DNA from: Maritimibacter sp.
GTDB taxonomy: Bacteria > Pseudomonadota > Alphaproteobacteria > Rhodobacterales > Rhodobacteraceae
Reading direction: 5' to 3'
Length of the DNA stretch: 64,000 bases
Assembly: GCA_017792445.1 (NCBI GenBank)
Contig: CP051232.1
Span: 4,066,001-4,130,000 of the forward strand
Part shown: positions 54,711 through 64,000 of the stretch, piece by piece
How the letters are laid out: every line of letters starts with the position of its first letter
How positions within the stretch are numbered: the stretch's first letter is position 1
Notes under the pieces: model-generated
The model's database searches: none
What the model was told of the DNA's origin: nothing
Seen by the model: only the letters and a program-made list of their open reading frames with translations
Made by a program: the position numbers and the translations under genes

Positions 54711-55558
54711 GCCGCCCCCTTATCCGCATCAAGGACCTGTCGATCCATTTTCCGCTGGGCCGCCGCCTGATCGGTCAGCCTCCGGTGCTGAAGGCGGTCG
54801 ACGGTATCAACCTCGATATCCCCAAGGGAAGCTTCGTCGGGCTGGTGGGCGAAAGCGGGTCCGGCAAGACCACGCTGGGCCGCGCGATCCTGCGCGCCGC
54901 GCCGATCACCCACGGGTCGATCACCTATGACGATGGCCAGCGCACCTTCGACGTCGCCAACATCAAGCCGCGCGATCTGAAAGAGTACCGCCGCCGCGCG
55001 CAACTGATCTTTCAGGACCCCTATGCCGCGCTGTCGCCCCGGATGACGGTGCGCGACATCATCGCCGAACCGCTGGAGGTGATGGGCCTGACCAAGTCCC
55101 GCGCCGAGACCGACGAACGCGTCCGCGAGATCGCCGGCAAGTGCCGCCTGAACCTTGAACACCTGCGCCGTTATCCGCATGCCTTCTCGGGCGGTCAGCG
55201 GCAGCGTATCTCGATCGCCCGCGCGCTTGTGACGGGGCCGAAGTTCGTGGTGGCGGACGAGGCCGTGGCGGCGCTGGACGTGTCGATTCAGGCCGATATC
55301 CTGAACCTTCTCAAATCGTTGCAGCGCGACCTTGATCTGACGTTCCTGTTCATCAGCCACGATCTGAGCGTCGTCGCCCATGTCTGCGATTTCGTCGCGG
55401 TGATGTACCATGGCAAGATGATGGAACAGGCCCCGACCCGCCAGCTTTTCGCCGATCCGCAGCACGAGTACACCAAATGTCTGCTGTCCGCGATCCCGTC
55501 GCTGGACCCGGACGACCGTCGCCCGGCGCGGATCTACAACCCGGAAGAAACCGCCTAG
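54707..55558 (+). CDS. ABC importer ATPase 2 (DppF-type)
   Basis: A 283-residue ATPase: Walker A GESGSGKTTLG, Q-loop LIFQDPYAALSPRM, signature FSGGQRQRISIARAL, and Walker B FVVADEAVAALD, in which the usual DEPVSALD is DEAVAALD (Pro to Ala). It completes the importer. Shorter than the usual DppF (about 320) because the C-terminal extension is reduced. Its end overlaps the convergent kinase gene by four bases. Confidence 0.94.
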   Translation: MSRPLIRIKDLSIHFPLGRRLIGQPPVLKAVDGINLDIPKGSFVGLVGESGSGKTTLGRAILRAAPITHGSITYDDGQRTFDVANIKPRDLKEYRRRAQLIFQDPYAALSPRMTVRDIIAEPLEVMGLTKSRAETDERVREIAGKCRLNLEHLRRYPHAFSGGQRQRISIARALVTGPKFVVADEAVAALDVSIQADILNLLKSLQRDLDLTFLFISHDLSVVAHVCDFVAVMYHGKMMEQAPTRQLFADPQHEYTKCLLSAIPSLDPDDRRPARIYNPEETA

Positions 55559-56880
55559 CGCGCCATCACGAGGTCGATCTTCAGCCCGCCCAGCCGTTCG
55601 CTTTCGCCAAGAAACAACGAGCCGCCGTGCCGCCGCGCGATGTCTTGCGCGATGGCAAGGCCAAGCCCCACCCCGGTCCCCCGGTCCTGATTGCGTGACT
55701 TGTCGAGCCGCGAGAACGGCTTCAGCGCCTCTTCCCGCAGGTCCTCGGGAATACCCGGCCCGTCATCCTCGACCGAGATCCGGATCGCGCGTTCGGTGAC
55801 CGAGATCCGCATTTCGCAGGTCTCGCCATAGCGCAGGGCGTTGCCGACGAGGTTCTCCAGCGCCCGCGTGATCGCGTGGGGCCGCAGCTTGGTCGTGGGG
55901 TCGTCCACCGCGTCGCTTACCGACACTTCGGTCAGCGTCACGCTGTCGCCCGCCCGCTCGGCCACCTCGCGCACCAGCGCCAGCGGGTCGCTGTCGACCG
56001 GCTCGCCCAGCGATTCCTCGCGCGAGAAGGCAAGAAACTCGTCCAGCAGCCGTTCCATGTCGCCGACATCGCGCAGCATCGCCTCGGCCTCTTCCTCTTC
56101 CTCCAGCATCGACAGGCCCAGCTTCAGCCGGGTCAGCGGGGTGCGCATGTCGTGGCTCACGCCCGACAGCATCATCGTCCGCTGCTCGATCTGGCGCTCG
56201 ATCCGCGACCGCATGTCGACGAACGCGCTGCCCGCCGCGCGCACCTCGTTCGCGCCCGAGGGGCGATAGGGCACCATCCGCCCGCGCCCGAACTCTGCGG
56301 CGGCGGCGGCAAGGCGCGCGATCGGGCGCAACTGGTTGCGCAGGAAGACATAGGCGATCACCGACATCAGCGCGCCGGTCACCAGCATCAGCACCAGCAA
56401 CTGGTGTGGATTCGAGGCCGACACCCGCCGCCGGTCGAACTCGGCCCGCATCGTGCCATGCACGGTGTCCAGCCATGCCACCGCCCGGCGGCTGGAGCTT
56501 TGCATGTCCACCGCCGCGACGCCGTCCATCTCGGCCCTGAGCGTGCGGATCATCGCGAGACCGGAGAAATCGTAAAACCGCCGTGCGTCGCCCTCGGGCG
56601 CGGTGGCGGGCACCGTGAACTCCAGCGCCAGCGGCGCGCCCAGCGACTTGGCCCGCGCCTGCGCCTCTGCAAGGTCGGGTGCCGCATCCACCACGCTGCG
56701 CACGAAACTCAGGTCCAGCGCGACGTTGCGGGTCATCTGCTCGGTCACGCCCTCGAAATGGCGTTGGATGAACACGACCGACACCACGAGTTGCAGCGTG
56801 ATGATCGGCACCAGCAGGATCAGCGCCGCCCGCCCGTACAACGAGCGCGGCATGTAGGATTTGCCCCGGAACAAGCTCAT
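55555..56880 (-). CDS. EnvZ/RstB-like sensor histidine kinase, without adjacent response regulator
   Basis: A 441-residue kinase: helix 1 at about residues 16-36, a periplasmic domain of about 120 residues, helix 2 near 165-185, and a HAMP domain (RNQLRPIARLAAAAAEFGRG). The phosphoacceptor is in SGVSHDMRTPLTRLKLGLSM, followed by NLVGNALRYG and DDGPGIP/GVGLGLAI. The layout and RLKLGLSM box match EnvZ. Neither neighbour is a response regulator, so its partner is elsewhere. Confidence 0.9.
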   Translation of the reverse strand: MSLFRGKSYMPRSLYGRAALILLVPIITLQLVVSVVFIQRHFEGVTEQMTRNVALDLSFVRSVVDAAPDLAEAQARAKSLGAPLALEFTVPATAPEGDARRFYDFSGLAMIRTLRAEMDGVAAVDMQSSSRRAVAWLDTVHGTMRAEFDRRRVSASNPHQLLVLMLVTGALMSVIAYVFLRNQLRPIARLAAAAAEFGRGRMVPYRPSGANEVRAAGSAFVDMRSRIERQIEQRTMMLSGVSHDMRTPLTRLKLGLSMLEEEEEAEAMLRDVGDMERLLDEFLAFSREESLGEPVDSDPLALVREVAERAGDSVTLTEVSVSDAVDDPTTKLRPHAITRALENLVGNALRYGETCEMRISVTERAIRISVEDDGPGIPEDLREEALKPFSRLDKSRNQDRGTGVGLGLAIAQDIARRHGGSLFLGESERLGGLKIDLVMAR

Positions 56881-56926
56881 GCGCTAGCAATAGCCCCGCA
56901 GGCCCCTCAGGAGAAAGCGACTTTCC

Positions 56927-57844
56927 GTGACCGAGATGGATTTCGATCCCGTCCCCGGCGTGTCCGAGGTTCTGGCGCCCGGCCTGCGCCGCGTGCTGGC
57001 CCCCAACCCGTCGCCGATGACCTTTCGCGGGACCAACAGCTTTCTGGTGGGCGAAGGCCGCGTTGCGCTGATCGACCCCGGCCCCGACCTGCCCGCCCAC
57101 CACGACGCCTTGCTGGCCGCGCTGGCGCCCGGAGAACGGATCACACACATCTTTCTGACCCATGCCCACCGCGACCATTCCGCCTTGGTGCCCGCGATGC
57201 GCGAGGCCACCGGCGCACCCGTGCTGGCGTTCGGAGACGCGCTGGCCGGGCGCAGCCCGGTGATGCAGGCGCTGGCCGCAAAGGGGCTTGGCGGCGGCGG
57301 CGAAGGGCTGGACCTTGGCTTCCGCCCCGATGCGACACTGGCGGATGGCGACACCGTGTCCGACGGCGACTGGTCCCTGACCGCGTTCCACACCCCCGGC
57401 CATGCCGCCAACCACCTGAGCTTCGGCTTCGGCGACATTCTGTTCTCGGGCGACGTGGTCATGGACTGGGCCAGCACCATGGTCTCGCCCCCGGACGGCG
57501 ACCTGACCGCCTTCATGGCCACCGCCGAACGTCTCGCCACCCTGCCCTTCACCCTGTTCCATCCCGCCCACGGCGCCCCCGTCACCGACCCCGCCGCCCG
57601 CTGCCGCTGGCTGATCGAGCACCGCCGCGCCCGCGAAGCGGCCATCCTCGAACACCTTTCCCAAGGCCCCGCGACGCCCGCCGAACTGACCCGGGCGATC
57701 TATACCGACACCCCGCCCGCGCTGCTGCCGATGGCGCAGCGAAACGTCTTCGCCCATCTCATTGATCTGACGACGAGAAAGCAGACAAAGGCCGAGCCTG
57801 CCCTTGCCACCGATGCGCGTTTTTCGCTGCCCGCAGGTAAATGA
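56927..57844 (+). CDS. MBL-fold metallo-hydrolase (LACTB2-like)
   Basis: A 305-residue metallo-beta-lactamase-fold hydrolase. The zinc motif THAHRDHS provides His79, His81, Asp83 and His84; HTPGHAANH and FSGDVVMDW supply the later ligands. A C-terminal winged-helix-like part (RHRAREAAILEHL ... RNVFAHLIDL) is typical of LACTB2-like hydrolases, some of which are RNases. GTG start at 56927. Confidence 0.9.
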   Translation: MTEMDFDPVPGVSEVLAPGLRRVLAPNPSPMTFRGTNSFLVGEGRVALIDPGPDLPAHHDALLAALAPGERITHIFLTHAHRDHSALVPAMREATGAPVLAFGDALAGRSPVMQALAAKGLGGGGEGLDLGFRPDATLADGDTVSDGDWSLTAFHTPGHAANHLSFGFGDILFSGDVVMDWASTMVSPPDGDLTAFMATAERLATLPFTLFHPAHGAPVTDPAARCRWLIEHRRAREAAILEHLSQGPATPAELTRAIYTDTPPALLPMAQRNVFAHLIDLTTRKQTKAEPALATDARFSLPAGK

Positions 57845-57904
57845 CGATTCCACGAAAATCCCTCTGGACGCCCGGAATCCCCCTTGTTATAGGAGCCGCG
57901 TTGT

Positions 57905-57979
57905 TCCGGCGTAGCTCAGCGGTAGAGCAGTTGACTGTTAATCAATTGGTCGTAGGTTCGATCCCTACCGCCGGAGCCA
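57905..57979 (+). tRNA. tRNA-Asn(GUU)
   Basis: A 75-base tRNA with encoded CCA: acceptor TCCGGCG/CGCCGGA, D-arm GCTC/GAGC, anticodon loop CTGTTAA with GTT, T-loop TTCGATC. All stems pair fully. Its 3' end faces the DUF3604-HupE operon. Confidence 0.97.
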
Positions 57980-58086: not shown

Positions 58087-59076
58087 CTAGAATCCCGATA
58101 TCCGTTCGATGACCCAGAAGGCCGCGATGCTGCCGATGGCGTAGCTGGCGCCGCGGCGTAGGCCCTCGGCGTGGCGGGCGAGGACGGGCAGCAGCAGTCC
58201 GGCGATGGCGCCAAGGGCGAGGATCGCGAAGATGAAGGCCAGTTGGCCAAGTTCCACCCCGACGTTGAAGGCGAACAGGGCCAGCGGAATGTCCCCGGCG
58301 GGAAGGCCGATCTCGGTCAACGCTCCGGCGAAGCCTAGCCCGTGGATCAGCCCGAAGCCGAAGGAGACCAGCCATGGCGCGCGGGTCGTCAGCGGGTCGC
58401 GGCGATCCGGCGCCAGCGTGAGTTCATAGGCAAGGAACACGATGGACAGCGCGATGACGGCCTCGACCGGCGGCGAGGGTATGTTCAGCACGCCGGCCGT
58501 CGCCGCTGCAAGCGTGATGCTGTGCGCCAGAGTGAAGGAGGTCACCGCCCAGAACAGCCGCCGGTAGTCCGACACCAGCATCAGCAACGCCAGCACGAAC
58601 AACAGGTGATCCAGCCCTCCGAGGATGTGGCTGAAGCCAAGCGAGACGTAGCTTTGCAGCACGTCCGCGACGCCCGCCTCGGCGGGGACGACAAAGGCCG
58701 GGTCGGTGGCGGTCAGCCGGTGGACCTGCGCCCGGCCCGGTTCCAGCTCGTAGCGGACCAGCGTGTCCGTGCTGCTGCGCTCCAGCCCCTCGATGTGGAT
58801 GGTGCCGCCCGCCAGACCGCCGGGACAGTTGGCGATACCACCGGAAACCCACGCGCGGCCATCGAAGACCGGCGCTGTGGGCGATGCGTCACCGCAGCTT
58901 TCAGGCAGCCGCACTTTCAGCGGCATCGGCCTGCCGCCGATGTCCGGCGCGCGCCATGTCACGCGCCAGTTGTCCTGCCCCAGCGCGCGCAGTTCAAGAT
59001 AGCCCGGGTCCAGCGCGTGGGCCGAGGCGATGGCGGGCAGGACAACCGCGATCAGCGCAAGGACAAGCCGTCTCAT
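58087..59076 (-). CDS. HupE/UreJ-family membrane protein
   Basis: A 329-residue protein with a signal peptide (ending IASAHA) and an N-terminal extracytoplasmic domain of about 130 residues, followed by a HupE/UreJ domain of about six helices. GFSHILGGLDHLLFVLAL and HSITLAAAT, FGLIHGLGFAGAL contain the family's membrane histidines, which bind Ni or Co in characterised relatives. Last gene of the operon; its start overlaps the isomerase gene by four bases (ATGA). The metal is not known. Confidence 0.88.
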   Translation of the reverse strand: MRRLVLALIAVVLPAIASAHALDPGYLELRALGQDNWRVTWRAPDIGGRPMPLKVRLPESCGDASPTAPVFDGRAWVSGGIANCPGGLAGGTIHIEGLERSSTDTLVRYELEPGRAQVHRLTATDPAFVVPAEAGVADVLQSYVSLGFSHILGGLDHLLFVLALLMLVSDYRRLFWAVTSFTLAHSITLAAATAGVLNIPSPPVEAVIALSIVFLAYELTLAPDRRDPLTTRAPWLVSFGFGLIHGLGFAGALTEIGLPAGDIPLALFAFNVGVELGQLAFIFAILALGAIAGLLLPVLARHAEGLRRGASYAIGSIAAFWVIERISGF

Positions 59077-59909
59077 TCCGCCAGTACCTCGTCCAACGGC
59101 GGCAGCGAGACATTGTAGCGCGACAAGAGCATCTCTCCGAAGGCCGCGCTGGCCTCTTTCGCCTTCTCGGCGCGCCACGCGGTTTCGACCCGCGCGCGGA
59201 CCTCGTCAAGCGCGGGCATGGCGCCCGGCACCCGGTCCGTCACCCGCACCAGATGCATGCCATAGCCGCTTTGCACCGGCCCCGCCCATTCGCCCTGAGG
59301 CAGTTCCGACAGCGACGCGGCGAAGCCAGCGCCGAAGCTGCGGTCGATCACCGGGGCGGCCATCATGCCGATGCGCATCGGCAGCAGGCTGGGCGCGGCA
59401 AGCGTCGCCGGGTCCGTACCAGCCCGCATCGCGGCAAGGATCGCTTCCGGGTCAGAGGCTTCTTGCGCGCTCAGTTGAAGCTGGTCGAAGGCCACTTCCG
59501 CCGGGCGGCGGAACATGTCGGGATGCGCGTCCAGATAGGCTTGCAGCGTCGCGTCGTCCGCGTCCAGCGCGGCGGCCCCGCCCTCGGCGAGGAATTTCAT
59601 CTTCAGGTTCAGGCGCTGCCGGATCACCGGGTCGCCCCGCTCGAGACCCAGCGCAGTCGCTTCGCGCACAAAGGCCTCTTCCAGCGCCCAGGACTGCATC
59701 AGCGCGTCCAATTCATCCGCGGTCGGCGGGCGGCTCCATGTCTGTTCGAACCGCTGCGCGATGCGCCGCGCCTCGTCCGCGCTCAGCGTCAGCGCATCCG
59801 GTTCCGGCGGCGGAGGTGTGTCGTCGACCATGGCGAACAGGGCGAAAATGCATCCGCCCAGAACGAAGAAATGCACCAGCGGCGAACGGAGGATCGTGGA
59901 AAGGGACAT
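59073..59909 (-). CDS. Membrane-anchored parvulin-type peptidyl-prolyl isomerase
   Basis: A 278-residue protein with an N-terminal membrane anchor (about residues 12-27) and a periplasmic SurA/PpiD-like part. The parvulin domain is marked by RPAEVAFDQLQLSAQ, LPQGEWAGPVQSGYGMHLVRV and a final helix. It may fold the operon's exported proteins. Translationally coupled to the HupE/UreJ gene, 75 bases after the HEAT-like gene. Confidence 0.88.
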   Translation of the reverse strand: MSLSTILRSPLVHFFVLGGCIFALFAMVDDTPPPPEPDALTLSADEARRIAQRFEQTWSRPPTADELDALMQSWALEEAFVREATALGLERGDPVIRQRLNLKMKFLAEGGAAALDADDATLQAYLDAHPDMFRRPAEVAFDQLQLSAQEASDPEAILAAMRAGTDPATLAAPSLLPMRIGMMAAPVIDRSFGAGFAASLSELPQGEWAGPVQSGYGMHLVRVTDRVPGAMPALDEVRARVETAWRAEKAKEASAAFGEMLLSRYNVSLPPLDEVLAE

Positions 59910-59984
59910 AGGCTACATCTTAGCGGGATTTTGAAGGAAGCGGGCCGCGAAACGGGCGGTGCGTCAAGGTTGCATGGGCAGGCG

Positions 59985-61085
59985 CTATCCGTCCGAGGAC
60001 GTGTCAGGCGACCAGCCGCCGACGGCCCGCGCCTGCGCGAGATACATCGCCACCGGCATCACCACGGCGGCATCCGCAAGACGTCCCGATCTGAGGACCG
60101 GTTCGAGGATGTCGGCCTGCGACCAGTCCTCGCGGGTGAAATACTGGCGCGCGATCGCCGCGGCGGCGACCGGGCGCGCGTCCATCAGGCGGACCAGCGT
60201 CTTCTGGATCTCGCCCTGCAGGTCGGGCGATCCCGACCCGCCGTGAATGGCAAGGGCCGAGACGACCTGTTCCAGCGTGTCGATGCCCAGAAGCGGGTTG
60301 TTCAGAACCGCGTCTTCCAGCCGCGCGATCCCGGCGGCGCCGTCGATCTCGATCAGCGCGGTCGCATAGGCGCCGAGAATGAAAGACCCGGTATCGACAC
60401 GGCCCATGCTGTCGATGGCAGTGCGCAGCGCCGACCGGGCCTTTGGATCGTCGCTCAGGCCCAGAAGCAGAACCCGGATCGGTCGCAGCGCGAAGCCGTT
60501 CGGGTCGCGCACCCCGGCCAGCAGGTCGTCGACCGGGATGCGCAGGTCGATATCCCGCAGCATCTCGTAGGGCGCCTGATCGATCTCGCGCAGGGCAAGC
60601 GTGCGCATCGCGGGCGATGGATGGGTCTGAAGCCCCTCGAACAGCGCAAAGCGGTCCGGGTCATAGGGGCCGGTCCACCCTGCCCTTCGCGACAGGACCG
60701 TCTCGACCAGGTCGCGGTAGTCTGGCGTCAGGTAGGCCAGCCGCTCCCACCGCCCGGTCGAAGGCTCGTGTACGAACAGGACACCGTCTTCGGGGTTCAG
60801 GGCCAGCCTGCGCCGCGTGGCGCTGTCGACCAAAGCCCCGATGGCGACCGGTTCGCCGTTGTCGACCAGCGTCTCGACCGGGACATAGGCGAAGGGGTTG
60901 CCCGGCGCGTTTCTTGCGACAACCACGTGATCGCCCTCGACCAGCCAGTCGATCACCGTCTTCTCGGGCGCGTACATGTGAAACCCGCAGGCCCCCGCGG
61001 ACCCGGCCAGAACCGCGCAAGCCGCGACCGTGCTCAATGTCCGTCGCGCCAGAGAACCAAGTGCTGTGCCGGGGATCGACATCAT
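59985..61085 (-). CDS. Exported HEAT-like hypothetical protein
   Basis: A 366-residue protein. A hydrophobic signal (TVAACAVLAGSAGA) precedes CGFHMYAPEKTVIDWLVEGD; the Cys could be a lipidation site although the preceding AGA is not a classical lipobox. The C-terminal ~230 residues are helical with HEAT-like periodicity (AMRTLALREIDQAPYEMLRD, GAAGIARLEDAVLNNPLLG). Start at 61085 is the nearest to the signal peptide. No family recognised. It lies 56 bases after the first DUF3604 gene. Confidence 0.7.
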   Translation of the reverse strand: MMSIPGTALGSLARRTLSTVAACAVLAGSAGACGFHMYAPEKTVIDWLVEGDHVVVARNAPGNPFAYVPVETLVDNGEPVAIGALVDSATRRRLALNPEDGVLFVHEPSTGRWERLAYLTPDYRDLVETVLSRRAGWTGPYDPDRFALFEGLQTHPSPAMRTLALREIDQAPYEMLRDIDLRIPVDDLLAGVRDPNGFALRPIRVLLLGLSDDPKARSALRTAIDSMGRVDTGSFILGAYATALIEIDGAAGIARLEDAVLNNPLLGIDTLEQVVSALAIHGGSGSPDLQGEIQKTLVRLMDARPVAAAAIARQYFTREDWSQADILEPVLRSGRLADAAVVMPVAMYLAQARAVGGWSPDTSSDG

Positions 61086-61141
61086 CGTCCTTACGGGTTT
61101 CGGTCTCATCCGGACGGACACGCCGCCCGGATGACACGGGA

Positions 61142-63109
61142 TCATTCGGCCGGCGTGTACCAGATCGGCGAGGTGTAGGCGCGTTCCTGGTGGATCATCG
61201 GCACCTCGTCCGGCATCTGGGCGCCAAGCCGGACCACGTCATAGGCGGTCCAGCGCGGCGTCGGGATTTCCAACACGCGGGCATAATAGAACGCGGGCCG
61301 CGACGGGTCGAAGTCGGGATCGGTCCAGGCCGTGATCAGTTCGCCCGCCCCGATCGAGTTGGTCCAGGTCGCTTCGTCCAGATCGACGGTCGACCCGATC
61401 GGCGGCAGCTTTCCGTCGGCATCGGGCTCGCGATCTCCGGCCCAGACGACATCGTAGACCATTTCGTGCGTCTCTCCGGCGTCGTCCATCCAGCCTTTGA
61501 CGATCTGGATGCGGTCGAGGTTCGCGCCGATGCTGTCCTTCAGCGCGCCGACAAGGAAGGTCGGAGCGGTCGCGCCATCCGGTGCGGGGCGCAGGTCGCC
61601 CCCCATCGGCACACCGCGCGCATAGCCCGCTTCCGCCGGCTGTCGCGACGTGGTGTCGGCCTCGTTGAAGTCCCAGCCGCCGAAGAAGCGCACCGTGATC
61701 CGCGGCCCGGTGGTGCCGTAGACCTCCTTGCGCTCCATTGCATCGAAGATGGCTTCCCGCGTGTTCTCGGACGCCCAAACGGCGGCATAGCCCGACGCGG
61801 TGGTTTCCCAGCCGAGGATGGCCAGTTCGCCGATGGCGCCGACGACATGCTTCCAGCGCTCGGCATCGGGCTCCACACCCGAGTGCTTGCCGAAGTAGTT
61901 GTCCTCTTCCCCCGTCGACAGGGCGGTGTGCGAGTCCGTCGAGCCCACCATGCCGAACTTGTAGGGGTTCACGCCGAATTCTTCCGCGATCGTAAGGCCG
62001 TTCTTCAGCGCCTCGCGGGCGTATTCGTACTGAAGCATCGACTCCTGCTTCGGGATCCCGGCCATGTTGCCGATATCCCATGTCTCGTAATCCGCGAATT
62101 CGTCATCCGGCGACAGCATGGGGTGCGTTTCCCCGTCGCCCTTCATCTGGGTGACCTCGTACAGCGGTTCCCACTTGAAGCGCCGTGCGAAATAGTCGCC
62201 GCCCAAGGGTTCGCCCGTGGCGGGGTTGGTCTCGACCGGGAACATCAGGCCGTTCGACAGGTTGCCGTTATGCGCCAAGGCAAGAACGTCGCCGCCGGTC
62301 TTTTCCTCGTAGGTTTCCATCCACGTCCAAAGGTCTTCCGGATTGGTGCTTCCCAGCGTGTCGAGCGGCAGCATCTGACGCGCATAGGTCCCGTCGTCGC
62401 GGAAGATGACGTTCCGGTGCAGGTTGTTCCCGGCTTCGGTCGAGGTCCATTCATACCCGATCAGCGCCGTGAACACGCCGGGTTCGTTGTATTCCTCGGC
62501 GATCTCGATGACCTCGTTCCAGACCGACTTGGCCAGCTTCGGGTCGACGAAGGCGGGCGGGATCGTGCCGTCCGACATCGCGTTGGTGATCTCAAGCACC
62601 GACGTGACCGCCTCGGGCCCGCCGCCTTTCACGCGGTGGTACCAGTCAAGGATCTGGGGGTCGGCCAGCATCTCGGGATTGCCCGCAAGCATTTCCGTCA
62701 TGCTGCCCATCGCGTCGGAATGCTCGGTCACCGCCAGCCAGTCGAGCGGCCGCGACAGCTTGGCCGGCACGCCGTGGGACGCGATGACTTCCTCGCCGCG
62801 GGCAAACCGGTAGGCGTCGCGCGGCATGAGCGTCGCACTGTAGGCCGGCGCATCATAGGACAGCGCGGTGTGCATGTGCGAGTCGCCCCAAAGCGGCCGG
62901 ATCGGATAGGACAGACCGGCATAGGGCGAATAGTTGCGCGCGGGATTGCTGTCGAAGTCATCCTCGGTGAGATACATCTCTCCGACCATGCCGCCCTCGG
63001 GGACGTCCTGTGCCTGCAGCGCCGTGGCGAGAATTGCGCCGGCGGCAAGTCCAAGCGTCGTCGTGGCAAGCAGATGTCGGCGTTGCAAAGCGATGGATGA
63101 AGGTTTCAT
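61142..63109 (-). CDS. Exported DUF3604-family protein with PHP-like metal motifs
   Basis: A 655-residue protein. The N-terminus QRRHLLATT followed by a hydrophobic run suggests Tat export. Metal-binding motifs of the PHP phosphoesterase type can be read: GDSHMHTA (His78, His80), LAVTEHSDAMG (Glu129, His130), LALAHNGNLSNG, and GSTDSHTALS. The chemistry of DUF3604 is not established; the motifs suggest a two- or three-metal hydrolase. A paralogue lies immediately upstream on the same strand and shares the final [13 protein letters not shown]. Confidence 0.88.
   Translation of the reverse strand: MKPSSIALQRRHLLATTTLGLAAGAILATALQAQDVPEGGMVGEMYLTEDDFDSNPARNYSPYAGLSYPIRPLWGDSHMHTALSYDAPAYSATLMPRDAYRFARGEEVIASHGVPAKLSRPLDWLAVTEHSDAMGSMTEMLAGNPEMLADPQILDWYHRVKGGGPEAVTSVLEITNAMSDGTIPPAFVDPKLAKSVWNEVIEIAEEYNEPGVFTALIGYEWTSTEAGNNLHRNVIFRDDGTYARQMLPLDTLGSTNPEDLWTWMETYEEKTGGDVLALAHNGNLSNGLMFPVETNPATGEPLGGDYFARRFKWEPLYEVTQMKGDGETHPMLSPDDEFADYETWDIGNMAGIPKQESMLQYEYAREALKNGLTIAEEFGVNPYKFGMVGSTDSHTALSTGEEDNYFGKHSGVEPDAERWKHVVGAIGELAILGWETTASGYAAVWASENTREAIFDAMERKEVYGTTGPRITVRFFGGWDFNEADTTSRQPAEAGYARGVPMGGDLRPAPDGATAPTFLVGALKDSIGANLDRIQIVKGWMDDAGETHEMVYDVVWAGDREPDADGKLPPIGSTVDLDEATWTNSIGAGELITAWTDPDFDPSRPAFYYARVLEIPTPRWTAYDVVRLGAQMPDEVPMIHQERAYTSPIWYTPAE
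61151..61189. repeat. 39-base direct repeat, copy 1 (3' end of first DUF3604 gene)
   Basis: CGGCGTGTACCAGATCGGCG at 61151 begins a 39-base stretch identical to 63323-63361. It encodes the shared C-terminus of the two DUF3604 proteins. Confidence 0.95.
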
Positions 63110-63313
63110 GGCAATCCTCCCGAATGGAAATGTCGAGCCCTTAAAGCGTATCGCGTTAAGCTTACCCGCCAAAGATGAACCTCGGATACCTATTTGGCGT
63201 ACCGAACGCCGTCAGAGGCAAGCAAGACAGGCGTCCCGTGAGACGGCGACGCCTGCCCGGCGGGTCTTGCGACCTTTTGACCGACCGCCCGCAGACGGGC
63301 GAGCCGGCCTGTG

Positions 63314-64000
63314 TCACTCTGGCGGCGTGTACCAGATCGGCGAGGTGTAGGCGCGTTCCTGATGGAAGCGCGGAATGCCTTCCGGGGTCATATCCGCGCC
63401 CAGCCGCGCCTCGTCATAGGCCTGCCAGGTGGGTGTCGGGATCTCGAGCACACGAGCGTAGTACACGGCGGGCACCGACGGATCGAAGTCCGGGTCGGTC
63501 CAGACGGTGCGCAGTTCCGGTGCGCCGATGGTGTTCGTCCACGTCGCGTTTTCAACATCGACCGTGTTGCCGACTTCGGTCGTGGCTCGCCCGTCCTCGC
63601 CGATCTCGCGGCCGTCGGACACGGCGACGTCGAAGATCCGCTCGTGGCGCTCGCCTTCCGTATCGACCCAGCCCTTCACGATCTGGATGCGGTCGAGGTT
63701 GCCCCACCATGCGTCCTTCAGCGCCCCGACCATGAAGACCGGCGCCGTCGCACCTTCGGGCGCGGGCTCGAGATCGCCGCCCATAGGCACGCCCTTGGCA
63801 TAGCCGATGTCGATCACGTCGGGACGATAGGCGTCATCCTCGGCATAATCCCAGCCGCCGAAGAACCGGACCGCGATGCGGGTGCCGGTGGTCGCATAGA
63901 CCTCTTTGCGCTTCATCGCGTCGAAGATCGCCTCGCGCGTGTTCTCGGTGGCCCATACCCCGGCAAGGCCCGAGGCCAGCACGTCGTATTCGAACGTCGA
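63314..64000 (-). CDS. Second DUF3604-family protein, C-terminal part (cut by window edge)
   Basis: The last 228 residues of a protein running beyond the right edge. Closely similar to the C-terminal third of the 61.1-kb DUF3604 protein: [54 protein letters not shown] and [15 protein letters not shown]. The PHP-like metal motifs would be outside the window. 204 bases separate it from the first copy; no gene lies between. Confidence 0.9.
63323..63361. repeat. 39-base direct repeat, copy 2 (3' end of second DUF3604 gene)
   Basis: Identical over 39 bases to 61151-61189, 2172 bases away in the same orientation, covering the final codons of the second DUF3604 gene. Confidence 0.95.

Follow-up and report, generated by a model that had tools for sequence, protein, structure and literature searches.

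We lean towards reading a cluster of five genes in Maritimibacter sp. as one or more exported PHP-type metallohydrolases encoded together with a folding and metal-supply module of their own. The putative enzymes belong to the DUF3604 family, and the linkage of DUF3604 genes to those of a parvulin peptidyl-prolyl isomerase (PPI) and a HupE_UreJ_2 permease (HupE2) lies far above chance. The cluster ends the window, that is, the whole stretch of 64,000 nucleotides of contig CP051232.1 that was analysed (Table 1).

The whole cluster lies on the minus strand, in the order DUF3604 #1, DUF3604 #2, HEAT-like, PPI and HupE2, with intergenic gaps of 204, 56 and 75 bases and a final 4-base overlap; the longest HEAT-like frame begins at 61145, and the ATG at 61085 is the start used for the gaps. 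Gene order, gaps, overlap and motif positions are exactly those of a first-pass annotation made from the sequence. The Pfam scores are 798.3 bits for PF12228, 66.9 bits for PF13145 and 159.8 bits for PF13795 (cut-off 24.5). The complete DUF3604 #1 has 654 residues, its gene extending past the window to contig position 4131278, and upstream of it are two overlapping HupE/UreJ-type genes, the first with 198 bits to PF04955 and the second barely passing (23.5 bits against a cut-off of 23), making three at the locus in all. The cluster had been described as one apparent operon: the shared strand and short gaps were borne out, and a single transcription unit is uncertain because both DUF3604 genes share an upstream 23-mer (TAAGCTTAACGCGATACGYTTAA) and separate promoters are conceivable. 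DUF3604 #1 and #2 may thus each have their own promoter. The 23-mer has two copies in the genome at ≤3 mismatches, both upstream of DUF3604 genes, and was rejected as a pointer to a wider regulon. A tRNA-Asn gene borders the cluster, and the same site, formed by a sensor kinase, MBL and tRNA-Asn, is occupied in two other genomes by PPI-HupE2-HEAT.

Table 1 Features of the DUF3604 cluster and its border, in window positions
Feature	Position	Strand	Remarks
tRNA-Asn	57905..57979	+	adjoins the cluster
HupE_UreJ_2 permease (PF13795)	58087..59076	-	exported N-terminal domain; HX5DH = HILGGLDH
Parvulin PPIase (Rotamase_2, PF13145)	59073..59909	-	membrane-anchored; SurA-like by sequence; subfamily tracking DUF3604
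'HEAT-like' exported protein	59985..61085	-	mature N-terminus CGFH
DUF3604 #2	61142..63109	-	exported PHP-type protein, probable metallohydrolase
Upstream 23-mer	63142..63164	-	common to DUF3604 #1; one mismatch at this copy
DUF3604 #1, 3' part	63314..64000	-	stop at 63314; truncated by the window end

The DUF3604 scan matched at least 599 stretches and confirmed at least 595, of which the best 80 were kept, so the sample is skewed to close relatives; many of these loci are metagenome bins with possibly wrong labels. Among the 39 of these best 80 loci that were well flanked (at least 4 kb on either side), 26 have PPI as well as HupE2 no more than 5 kb away, on the same strand in 25 of them, and 13 are without the pair within that distance. 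HupE2 directly follows PPI in 52 of 53 cases with a PPI score above 100 bits (L003 to L098), and the remaining one leaves its contig. A parvulin gene followed by HupE_UreJ_2 next to DUF3604 recurs in several bacterial phyla, and the gene orders vary: DUF3604-PPI-HupE2, PPI-HupE2-DUF3604, convergent (L122, L123, L206 and L221) and divergent (L121 and L223). PPI-HupE2 also adjoins DUF3604-like genes that have diverged far and score just 58 and 65 bits against a custom profile (L121 and L120). The first-pass annotation had staked its reading on co-occurrence of DUF3604, PPIase and HupE across genomes, and we found it conserved in several phyla and gene orders. The counts rest on profile scans of all six frames and on a simple gene caller, with some genes missed or mis-started; the totals of at least 57 PPI and at least 48 HupE2 loci are lower bounds, and HupE2 is under-called. 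One set of loci was chosen, not sampled (5 for HEAT linkage and 15 as other DUF3604 sites).

Across 142 genomes of the host's class, full-length DUF3604 is present in 12, the PPI subfamily in 12 and both in 11 (Fisher 1.8e-14, uncorrected for relatedness). These genomes carry 34 full DUF3604 genes and 18 PPI genes (a G007 gene broken into two halves was counted once), the ratio reaching 7:1 in one genome, and this excess suits one helper pair serving several enzymes. With the source genome left out, 17 of 32 full DUF3604 copies have no HupE2 within 10 kb, a count that uses full-length DUF3604 rows only and excludes HupE_UreJ_2 rows weaker than E 7.3e-39. In genome G052, DUF3604 is present and PPI and HupE2 were undetected, so there is no strict requirement for the helpers.

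Proteins of the PHP superfamily carry nine metal residues in the pattern H, H, D/H, H, E, H, H/C, D, H across four motifs. The PHP-type motifs noticed earlier are present in DUF3604 #2 (HxH at 78/80, TEHSD at 128-132, AHNG at 279-282 and TDSH at 391-394) and conserved. All nine predicted metal residues (H78, H80, D86, H130, E220, H231, H280, D392 and H394) are invariant in 16 of 16 sequences; in a set of 79, whose alignment numbers run 32 below those of DUF3604 #2, the last six are invariant and H78, H80 and D86 are conserved at ≥90%. An AF2 model from the 79-row alignment (pLDDT 92.8, pTM 0.92) superseded a single-sequence run with a pLDDT of 33.6. VIA fold comparison matched this model to 3e38 (Z 15.9 over 222 residues, the best value), 2anu (Z 14.8) and EndoQ (Z 12.1); the sole Foldseek matches below E 0.001 were 2anu chains (1.6e-4), and the search of DUF3604 against PDB sequences gave no match. 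The comparison with PHP proteins that the first-pass annotation had proposed recovered the PHP fold, and DUF3604 is confidently predicted to have this fold with a complete PHP metal motif set. The model also has a beta-rich C-terminal region (~438-623), for which no fold is claimed since VIA rows confined to it have Z <5. As for export, a Tat-like signal had been suggested; both DUF3604 signals of the pair do contain RR (NGRRLLA and LQRRHLLA), but Tat export was not borne out family-wide: among 84 called N-termini of homologues, 5 have RR within their first 30 residues (some genes, including DUF3604 #2, are given a wrong start by the caller). Judged by these signals, Tat export would apply to this pair at most.

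The top fold matches, 3e38 (BVU_3505) and 2anu (TM0559), are annotated as predicted phosphoesterases and resemble DUF3604 over the PHP core, with motif order alike by eye; they have no sequence match from DUF3604, which differs in its extra beta-rich C-terminal region. Sb-PDE of Sphingobium TCM1 is, in the available part of its report, an exported and active PHP hydrolase (a phosphodiesterase) that shares signal-peptide export and PHP motifs with DUF3604 and is expected to have a trinuclear metal site, but its mature form has 413 residues and a PF02811 domain, and no PPI or HupE partner is mentioned in that part (PMC5460133). The CehA/McbA family (NF038032) is described, in a source available in part, as carbaryl and oxamyl hydrolases. 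The DUF3604 protein of the window gave no match to NF038032 at E ≤1 and stayed below its curated cut-off of 80 bits. An archaeal DUF3604 protein (L013) clears the thresholds of both models, with 68.5 bits to PF12228 and 80.6 to NF038032 (cut-off 80), and three proteins of genome G137 lie above the PF12228 cut-off and below that of NF038032 (58-69 bits). Combined in one profile with these three proteins, five NF038032 members matched DUF3604 at 99.1% (E 1e-18, all motifs), and the five members alone at 36.5% (E 3.7e-4, 40 columns, first two motifs); the best match of the NF038032 group to solved PHP proteins was 1.3e-7 with the intermediates and 7.2e-4 without. Direct kinship was rejected because the strong match came largely from three intermediates that already matched PF12228, and CehA/McbA hydrolases are tied to DUF3604 through intermediates only. 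As the direct match is weak, the CehA/McbA reaction type is not transferable to DUF3604, and because the profile match fell without the intermediates, the PHP assignment rests on predicted structure and motifs. The probability we give to the proposed mechanism does not depend on that match.

The cluster parvulin shares the parvulin domain with SurA, PpiD, PrsA and NifM, and its divergent relative in L120 has a SurA-like N-terminus, but it falls below every listed NCBIfam cut-off and belongs to its own subfamily, which tracks DUF3604. HX5DH is the metal motif of HupE_UreJ_2 permeases. It is present in 49 of 49 sequences, whose mature N-terminus is His in 46 and Asp in 3 (cleavage site by eye); in the cluster's own permease, the cleavage predicted by eye (ASA^HALDPGYLEL) would leave His first. 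Anglerases Ang-1 and Ang-2, on HupE/UreJ-2 permeases, were proposed to catch metal for import (PMC12537917). The DUF3604-linked permease is like them in having an exported N-terminal domain with an N-terminal His fused to PF13795 (PMC12537917), but in sequence and profile searches up to E 10 this domain does not match the Ang-1 structure 9GCE, whereas another permease in the source genome does (E 7.7e-21). Genes named as lying near Ang-1 are those for DUF4198, indigoidine A-like and PfkB proteins, and DUF3604 is absent from the main text of that study (PMC12537917). Measurements on the N-terminal-His domain of Ang-1 show the best binding for Cu and Ni and a slight loss of stability with Zn, a counterpoint to the explanation we prefer (PMC12537917). 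The Ni/Co handling first attributed to the permease is unsupported: the domain published as Cu/Ni-binding shows no detectable match to the one here, and the neighbourhoods of some HEAT-like relatives point to zinc.

'HEAT-like' itself proved a weak label, as the Pfam HEAT model PF13646 scores 10.5 and 10.7 bits against a cut-off of 27.7. No other Pfam domain is above cut-off in this protein, which is a family of its own whose relatives share C-x-x-[C/H] at the mature N-terminus. The HMM profiles HEAT, HupEa and HupEb were built on 2-7 sequences and the zinc-gene profiles on one each. The 196 genomes of the host's order hold 23 copies of the gene: DUF3604 adjoins seven, four are in ABC/MacB-permease/DUF3299 loci (ZrgA Pfam-confirmed in three), one adjoins FUR-ZnuCBA-cobW genes, and nine have no DUF3604, PPI-HupE2 or zinc genes seen nearby. 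According to the available part of its source, zrgE carries the DUF3299 annotation and, in V. parahaemolyticus, is part of the Zur regulon. Some family members are thus located in Zrg/Znu zinc-starvation loci, from which the DUF3604 locus differs, with none of those genes seen and no Zur-like box. A Zur box consensus gave no site at ≤3 mismatches at the source locus (L003); the source genome has four Zur-like sites at ≤2 mismatches, none of them at this locus, and Zur control of the locus was rejected for this genome. Exact Zur core boxes were found in 2 of 135 loci (L014, before cobW genes, and L088). A search of 7 loci for riboswitches and other RNA elements near the clusters returned only tRNAs.

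In the reading we prefer, the DUF3604 enzyme would be exported without its full metal complement and would be helped to fold at the membrane by the parvulin anchored there. The HupE/UreJ_2 permease, whose N-terminal His domain would face the periplasm, would move a divalent metal and hand it over, filling the multinuclear PHP site. In the minority of clusters that include it, the C-x-x-C/H 'HEAT-like' protein may act as an accessory metal binder or chaperone, probably for zinc. The mature DUF3604 protein would act on an organic compound from the environment, hydrolysing a bond of the ester type (phosphoester or carbamate-like).

It is unlikely, by our estimate, that DUF3604 instead serves metal uptake, cleaving a chelating ligand so that the His domains capture the metal and HupE/UreJ imports it, with the parvulin just folding. 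The three HupE/UreJ-type genes at the locus, the HEAT-like relatives in zinc-acquisition loci and the import role proposed for anglerases (PMC12537917) would suit such a role. So would L014, in which DUF3604, HEAT-like, HupE, PPI and HupE2 directly precede a pair of cobW GTPase genes and DUF1826 and a Zur-box-like site lies between this cluster and the cobW genes, but DUF3604 is there a mere 206-residue remnant. Many DUF3604 copies in pair-bearing genomes lie away from the pair, the source locus has no Zur-like box, and an arylsulfatase gene nearby in 16 of 101 loci hints at substrate breakdown, all of which speak against uptake. We give a still lower probability to PPI and HupE/UreJ_2 being a general module for exported proteins or the envelope that tends to neighbour DUF3604 and has no specific role in its maturation. 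PF13795 is indeed found in 35 of the 142 class genomes, mostly without full-length DUF3604 and in other contexts, and PPI-HupE2-HEAT occurs in G211 and G181 without DUF3604 nearby; however, both genomes encode DUF3604 elsewhere, the PPI subfamily and DUF3604 coincide in 11 of 12 genomes, and the linkage persists through inversion and rearrangement. That DUF3604 binds metal without catalysis, as an exported PHP relative acting in sensing or storage, is very improbable given that six of the nine metal residues are invariant and three ≥90% conserved in 79 sequences and that the exported PHP protein Sb-PDE is, in the available part of its report, an active hydrolase (PMC5460133), even though the literature searched, part of it in partial text, holds no described function or activity for DUF3604, as the first-pass annotation had stated, and mentions the family only in a single row of a table in a Chlamydia transposon paper.

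Extending the metallohydrolase reading beyond this cluster, we tentatively suggest, at somewhat less than even confidence, that PPI and HupE/UreJ_2 form a portable unit for folding PHP-type hydrolases and loading them with metal outside the cytoplasm, with the C-x-x-C/H protein as an optional zinc chaperone; bacteria of several phyla would employ it for DUF3604 and the divergent relatives of that family. The set found side by side across phyla may be an undescribed kit for an extracytoplasmic metal enzyme. To our knowledge, metal acquisition by exported enzymes outside the cytoplasm is poorly understood. A portable unit of this kind, if real, would represent a pathway devoted to supplying exported metalloenzymes with metal and based on an N-terminal-His permease. 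The trio of PHP-type protein, parvulin and N-terminal-His permease, kept across phyla and despite rearrangements, is a directly testable candidate for such a pathway, and an exported family known by its DUF number alone gains partners, a predicted fold and a likely type of chemistry.

The five same-strand genes, the gaps between them and the motifs described by the first-pass annotation all matched the sequence on re-examination, and the cluster extends past the window end (L003, our own locus extended). Once read past this end, DUF3604 #1 is a complete protein of 654 residues, and two overlapping HupE/UreJ-type genes precede its gene. The first scores 198 bits against PF04955, and its protein has a signal-like stretch that ends before HTGEG and contains HPILGWDH; the second is barely above the PF04955 cut-off (23.5 vs 23). 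DUF3604 #1 and #2 are the two PF12228 matches in the genome (a single contig of 4.68 Mb, with the window at G000:C1:4066001-4130000). Upstream of both genes lies TAAGCTTAACGCGATACGYTTAA, with no other copy in the genome at ≤3 mismatches; because it is common and limited to the pair, it suggests common control, perhaps with a separate promoter before each gene. The cluster adjoins a tRNA-Asn, next to which are genes for a sensor kinase and a metallo-beta-lactamase-fold protein (both labeled by eye). At the equivalent site, two other genomes (G211, G181) have PPI, HupE2 and HEAT-like genes in the opposite orientation and no DUF3604 there, and one same-genus genome (G227) had neither DUF3604 nor the HEAT-like protein at the thresholds used. 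The DUF3604 cluster looks accessory in nature.

Coordinates of the genes and loci discussed
Feature	Location	Remark
DUF3604 #2	window 61142-63109 (-)	
DUF3604 #1	window 63314 onward (-)	cut by window end
HEAT-like gene	window 59985-61085 (-)	exported protein
Sensor kinase, metallo-beta-lactamase-fold gene, tRNA-Asn	window 55555-57979	conserved site
Second HEAT-like gene	G000:C1:1057873-1058961 (L182 7874-8962)	divergent from FUR-family/ZnuCBA/cobW zinc locus
DUF4198 gene back to back with HupE/UreJ-2 permease	G000:C1:1145409-1147374 (L118 6410-8375)	exported domain matches Cu/Ni-binding Ang-1 9GCE
Arylsulfatase example	L082 14315-16789	
DUF3604 remnant locus	L014 7938-15980	
Divergent DUF3604-like loci	L120 8341-12701; L121 8091-12800	
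DUF3604/CehA-like locus	L151 1-5541	

Scanned for DUF3604, bacterial and archaeal genomes gave at least 599 stretches, of which 595 were confirmed. The association with a PPIase and a HupE/UreJ protein seen in this one cluster proved to be conserved: among the 39 of the best 80 of 595 loci in which DUF3604 has ≥4 kb of flanking sequence on either side, our own profiles placed a membrane-anchored parvulin (Rotamase_2; PPI) and a HupE_UreJ_2 permease with an exported N-terminal domain (PF13795; HupE2) both within 5 kb in 26, and 13 lacked the pair within this distance, one of which (L089) has PPI at 5.7 kb. HupE2 directly follows PPI in 52 of the 53 PPI genes above 100 bits (L003-L098), the remaining one running off its contig. 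The linked loci, many from metagenome bins, are labeled as Alpha-, Beta-, Gamma- and Deltaproteobacteria, Acidobacteria, Verrucomicrobia, Bacteroidota, Nitrospirales and Krumholzibacteriia. The orders DUF3604-PPI-HupE2 and PPI-HupE2-DUF3604 were both seen; the pair is convergent with DUF3604 in L122, L123, L206 and L221 and divergent from it in L121 and L223, and L207 has six of the six families of our own locus in a different order. Annotated plasmid regions showed the trio in 10 of 15 (Rhizobium, Sinorhizobium, Ensifer, Neorhizobium, Rhodobacter, Ruegeria, Pseudoalteromonas), DUF3604 without the pair in four (Salipiger, SC52 plasmid pSC52_2, the archaeon Halomontanus, Ruegeria YS9) and a 206-residue DUF3604 remnant adjoined by the other families in one (SC52 plasmid pSC52_1). 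At L014, the 206-residue remnant occurs with HEAT-like, HupE, PPI and HupE2 genes, and two cobW GTPase genes and DUF1826 come next, behind a Zur-box-like site.

HX5DH and two more His columns (H185, H245) were kept in all 49 linked HupE2 proteins. Their mature N-terminus (cleavage by eye) is His in 46 and Asp in three; the alignment column shows 45, with L082 truncated there and its His visible in a separate sequence listing. N-terminal-His domains on HupE/UreJ-2 proteins are termed 'anglerases' in passages of a 2025 paper, which give one of them, solved as 9GCE, Kd values of 74 nM (Cu) and 220 nM (Ni) (PMC12537917). Another permease of our genome, beside DUF4198, matches this solved domain (E 7.7e-21). 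The exported domain of DUF3604-linked HupE2 gave no match to 9GCE, and therefore the anglerase metal specificity is not transferable to it. Among 14 HupE_UreJ_2 genes of other subtypes (L117-L121, L131-L135, L151, L155, L164, L177), 12 have a His directly after the Ala at which a signal-like stretch ends (by eye), one has Gly-His and one is masked. The permease family as a whole may thus share an N-terminal His. With such a permease in the cluster, the enzyme might itself serve metal uptake; we regard this as unlikely, since copy numbers and strict PPI-HupE2 pairing favor another reading, set out at the end.

In a class sample of 142 genomes (140 genera), full-length DUF3604 (E below 1e-100) and the PPI subfamily (E ≤ 1e-18) were each found in 12 and together in 11 (Fisher 1.8e-14); PF12228 was detected in 0 of 14 control genomes. 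The exceptions are G052, which has DUF3604 and where a search for PPI and HupE2 found neither, and G054, where the DUF3604-like gene that PPI-HupE2 adjoins is very divergent. At L120 and L121, PPI and HupE2 genes adjoin those of DUF3604-like proteins that are both very divergent and longer (752 and 774 residues as called). Outside our genome, a HupE_UreJ_2 gene lies ≤10 kb from 15 of 32 full DUF3604 copies and 17 are without one; of the 11 genomes in this count, 10 carry one or more linked copies. A loose association of PPI-HupE2 with DUF3604 is improbable beside the co-occurrence across genomes.

The PHP-type character assigned to DUF3604 by the first-pass annotation was upheld, with its motifs kept and a predicted fold that best matches PHP proteins. 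The AF2 model (79 sequences; pLDDT 92.8, pTM 0.92) had PHP proteins as its top VIA-align matches, led by 3e38 (Z 15.9, rmsd 3.3, 222 residues), with 2anu (Z 14.8), EndoQ (12.1), 3o0f (10.4), PolIII alpha (8.9) and RNase AM (8.8) also matched; plain Foldseek returned only two 2anu chains below E 0.001. Nine residues that we take to be the PHP-type pattern (H78, H80, D86, H130, E220, H231, H280, D392, H394) are invariant in 16 of 16 relatives, and across the 79 sequences six are invariant and three ≥90% conserved. Sb-PDE is described in passages of PMC5460133 as an exported PHP enzyme with known phosphodiesterase activity. The natural reading of DUF3604 is a putative exported ester-type hydrolase; a non-catalytic metal protein is very improbable beside this residue conservation. 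Arylsulfatase genes occur near DUF3604 in 16 of the 101 loci clustered (e.g., L082), 20 of 21 on the same strand, and a sulfatase-modifying enzyme gene in 4 of 101.

The CehA/McbA metallohydrolases tie to DUF3604 only via intermediates. Archaeal L013 is above both cut-offs (PF12228 68.5 bits; NF038032 80.6 vs 80), and three G137 proteins are above that of PF12228 and under that of NF038032. A profile of five NF038032 members and these three matched DUF3604 (99.1%, E 1e-18, 236 columns, all motifs paired) as well as 2anu (1.3e-7) and 3e38 (6.1e-7) in the PDB, whereas the five members alone gave 36.5% (E 3.7e-4, 40 columns) and their best PDB match fell to 7.2e-4. At L151, a DUF3604/CehA-like gene adjoins HupE-type and HupE2 genes, hinting at a permease link reaching beyond DUF3604.

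The HEAT label of the third exported protein was not borne out, as it is no Pfam HEAT protein. Its mature N-terminus would be C-x-x-C or C-x-x-H in five of the six first relatives, those with a complete N-terminus (cleavage by eye). The family is present in 2 of 142 class genomes; in 196 order genomes it occurs in 21, DUF3604 in 25 and both in 15 (Fisher 1.2e-11). The order genomes carry 23 copies in all, a fragment among them: seven adjoin DUF3604, two follow PPI-HupE2 without DUF3604 (L193, L197), four have DUF3299, an ABC ATPase and a MacB-like permease in their neighborhood (L191, L192, L194, L195; the ATPase Pfam-assigned only in L194, otherwise by profile or eye), one is the second copy of our own genome, and nine have none of DUF3604, PPI-HupE2 or zinc-locus neighbors in the stretches fetched. 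ZrgA was Pfam-confirmed in L191, L194 and L195. This second HEAT-like gene is followed by DUF3299 and faces away from a FUR-family gene, from which a Zur-box-like site separates it; behind the FUR-family gene come ZnuC-, ZnuB- and ZnuA-type genes and one of the cobW family. The zrg genes of V. parahaemolyticus, including zrgE (DUF3299), are Zur regulon members according to passages of PMC9817125, and the family is tied to zinc because some of its members occur in zrg- and Znu-type loci. No Zur-like box was found at the DUF3604 locus of our genome; judged from sequence, the apparent zinc link holds for the HEAT-like family, not for the DUF3604 locus itself.

None of the families is new, and public annotation already shows the trio. 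In the literature searched, a limited collection, DUF3604 is named in a single paper, in a table row, PF12228 and IPR022028 are not mentioned, and no description of the joint system was found. The best reading, which we consider somewhat probable, is that DUF3604 would be a PHP hydrolase that is exported and has a foldase (PPI) and a metal-supply permease (HupE2) of its own. It is favored because of the strict PPI-HupE2 pairing and the asymmetry in copy number, with 34 full DUF3604 vs 18 PPI genes; a single helper pair would therefore serve several enzymes.
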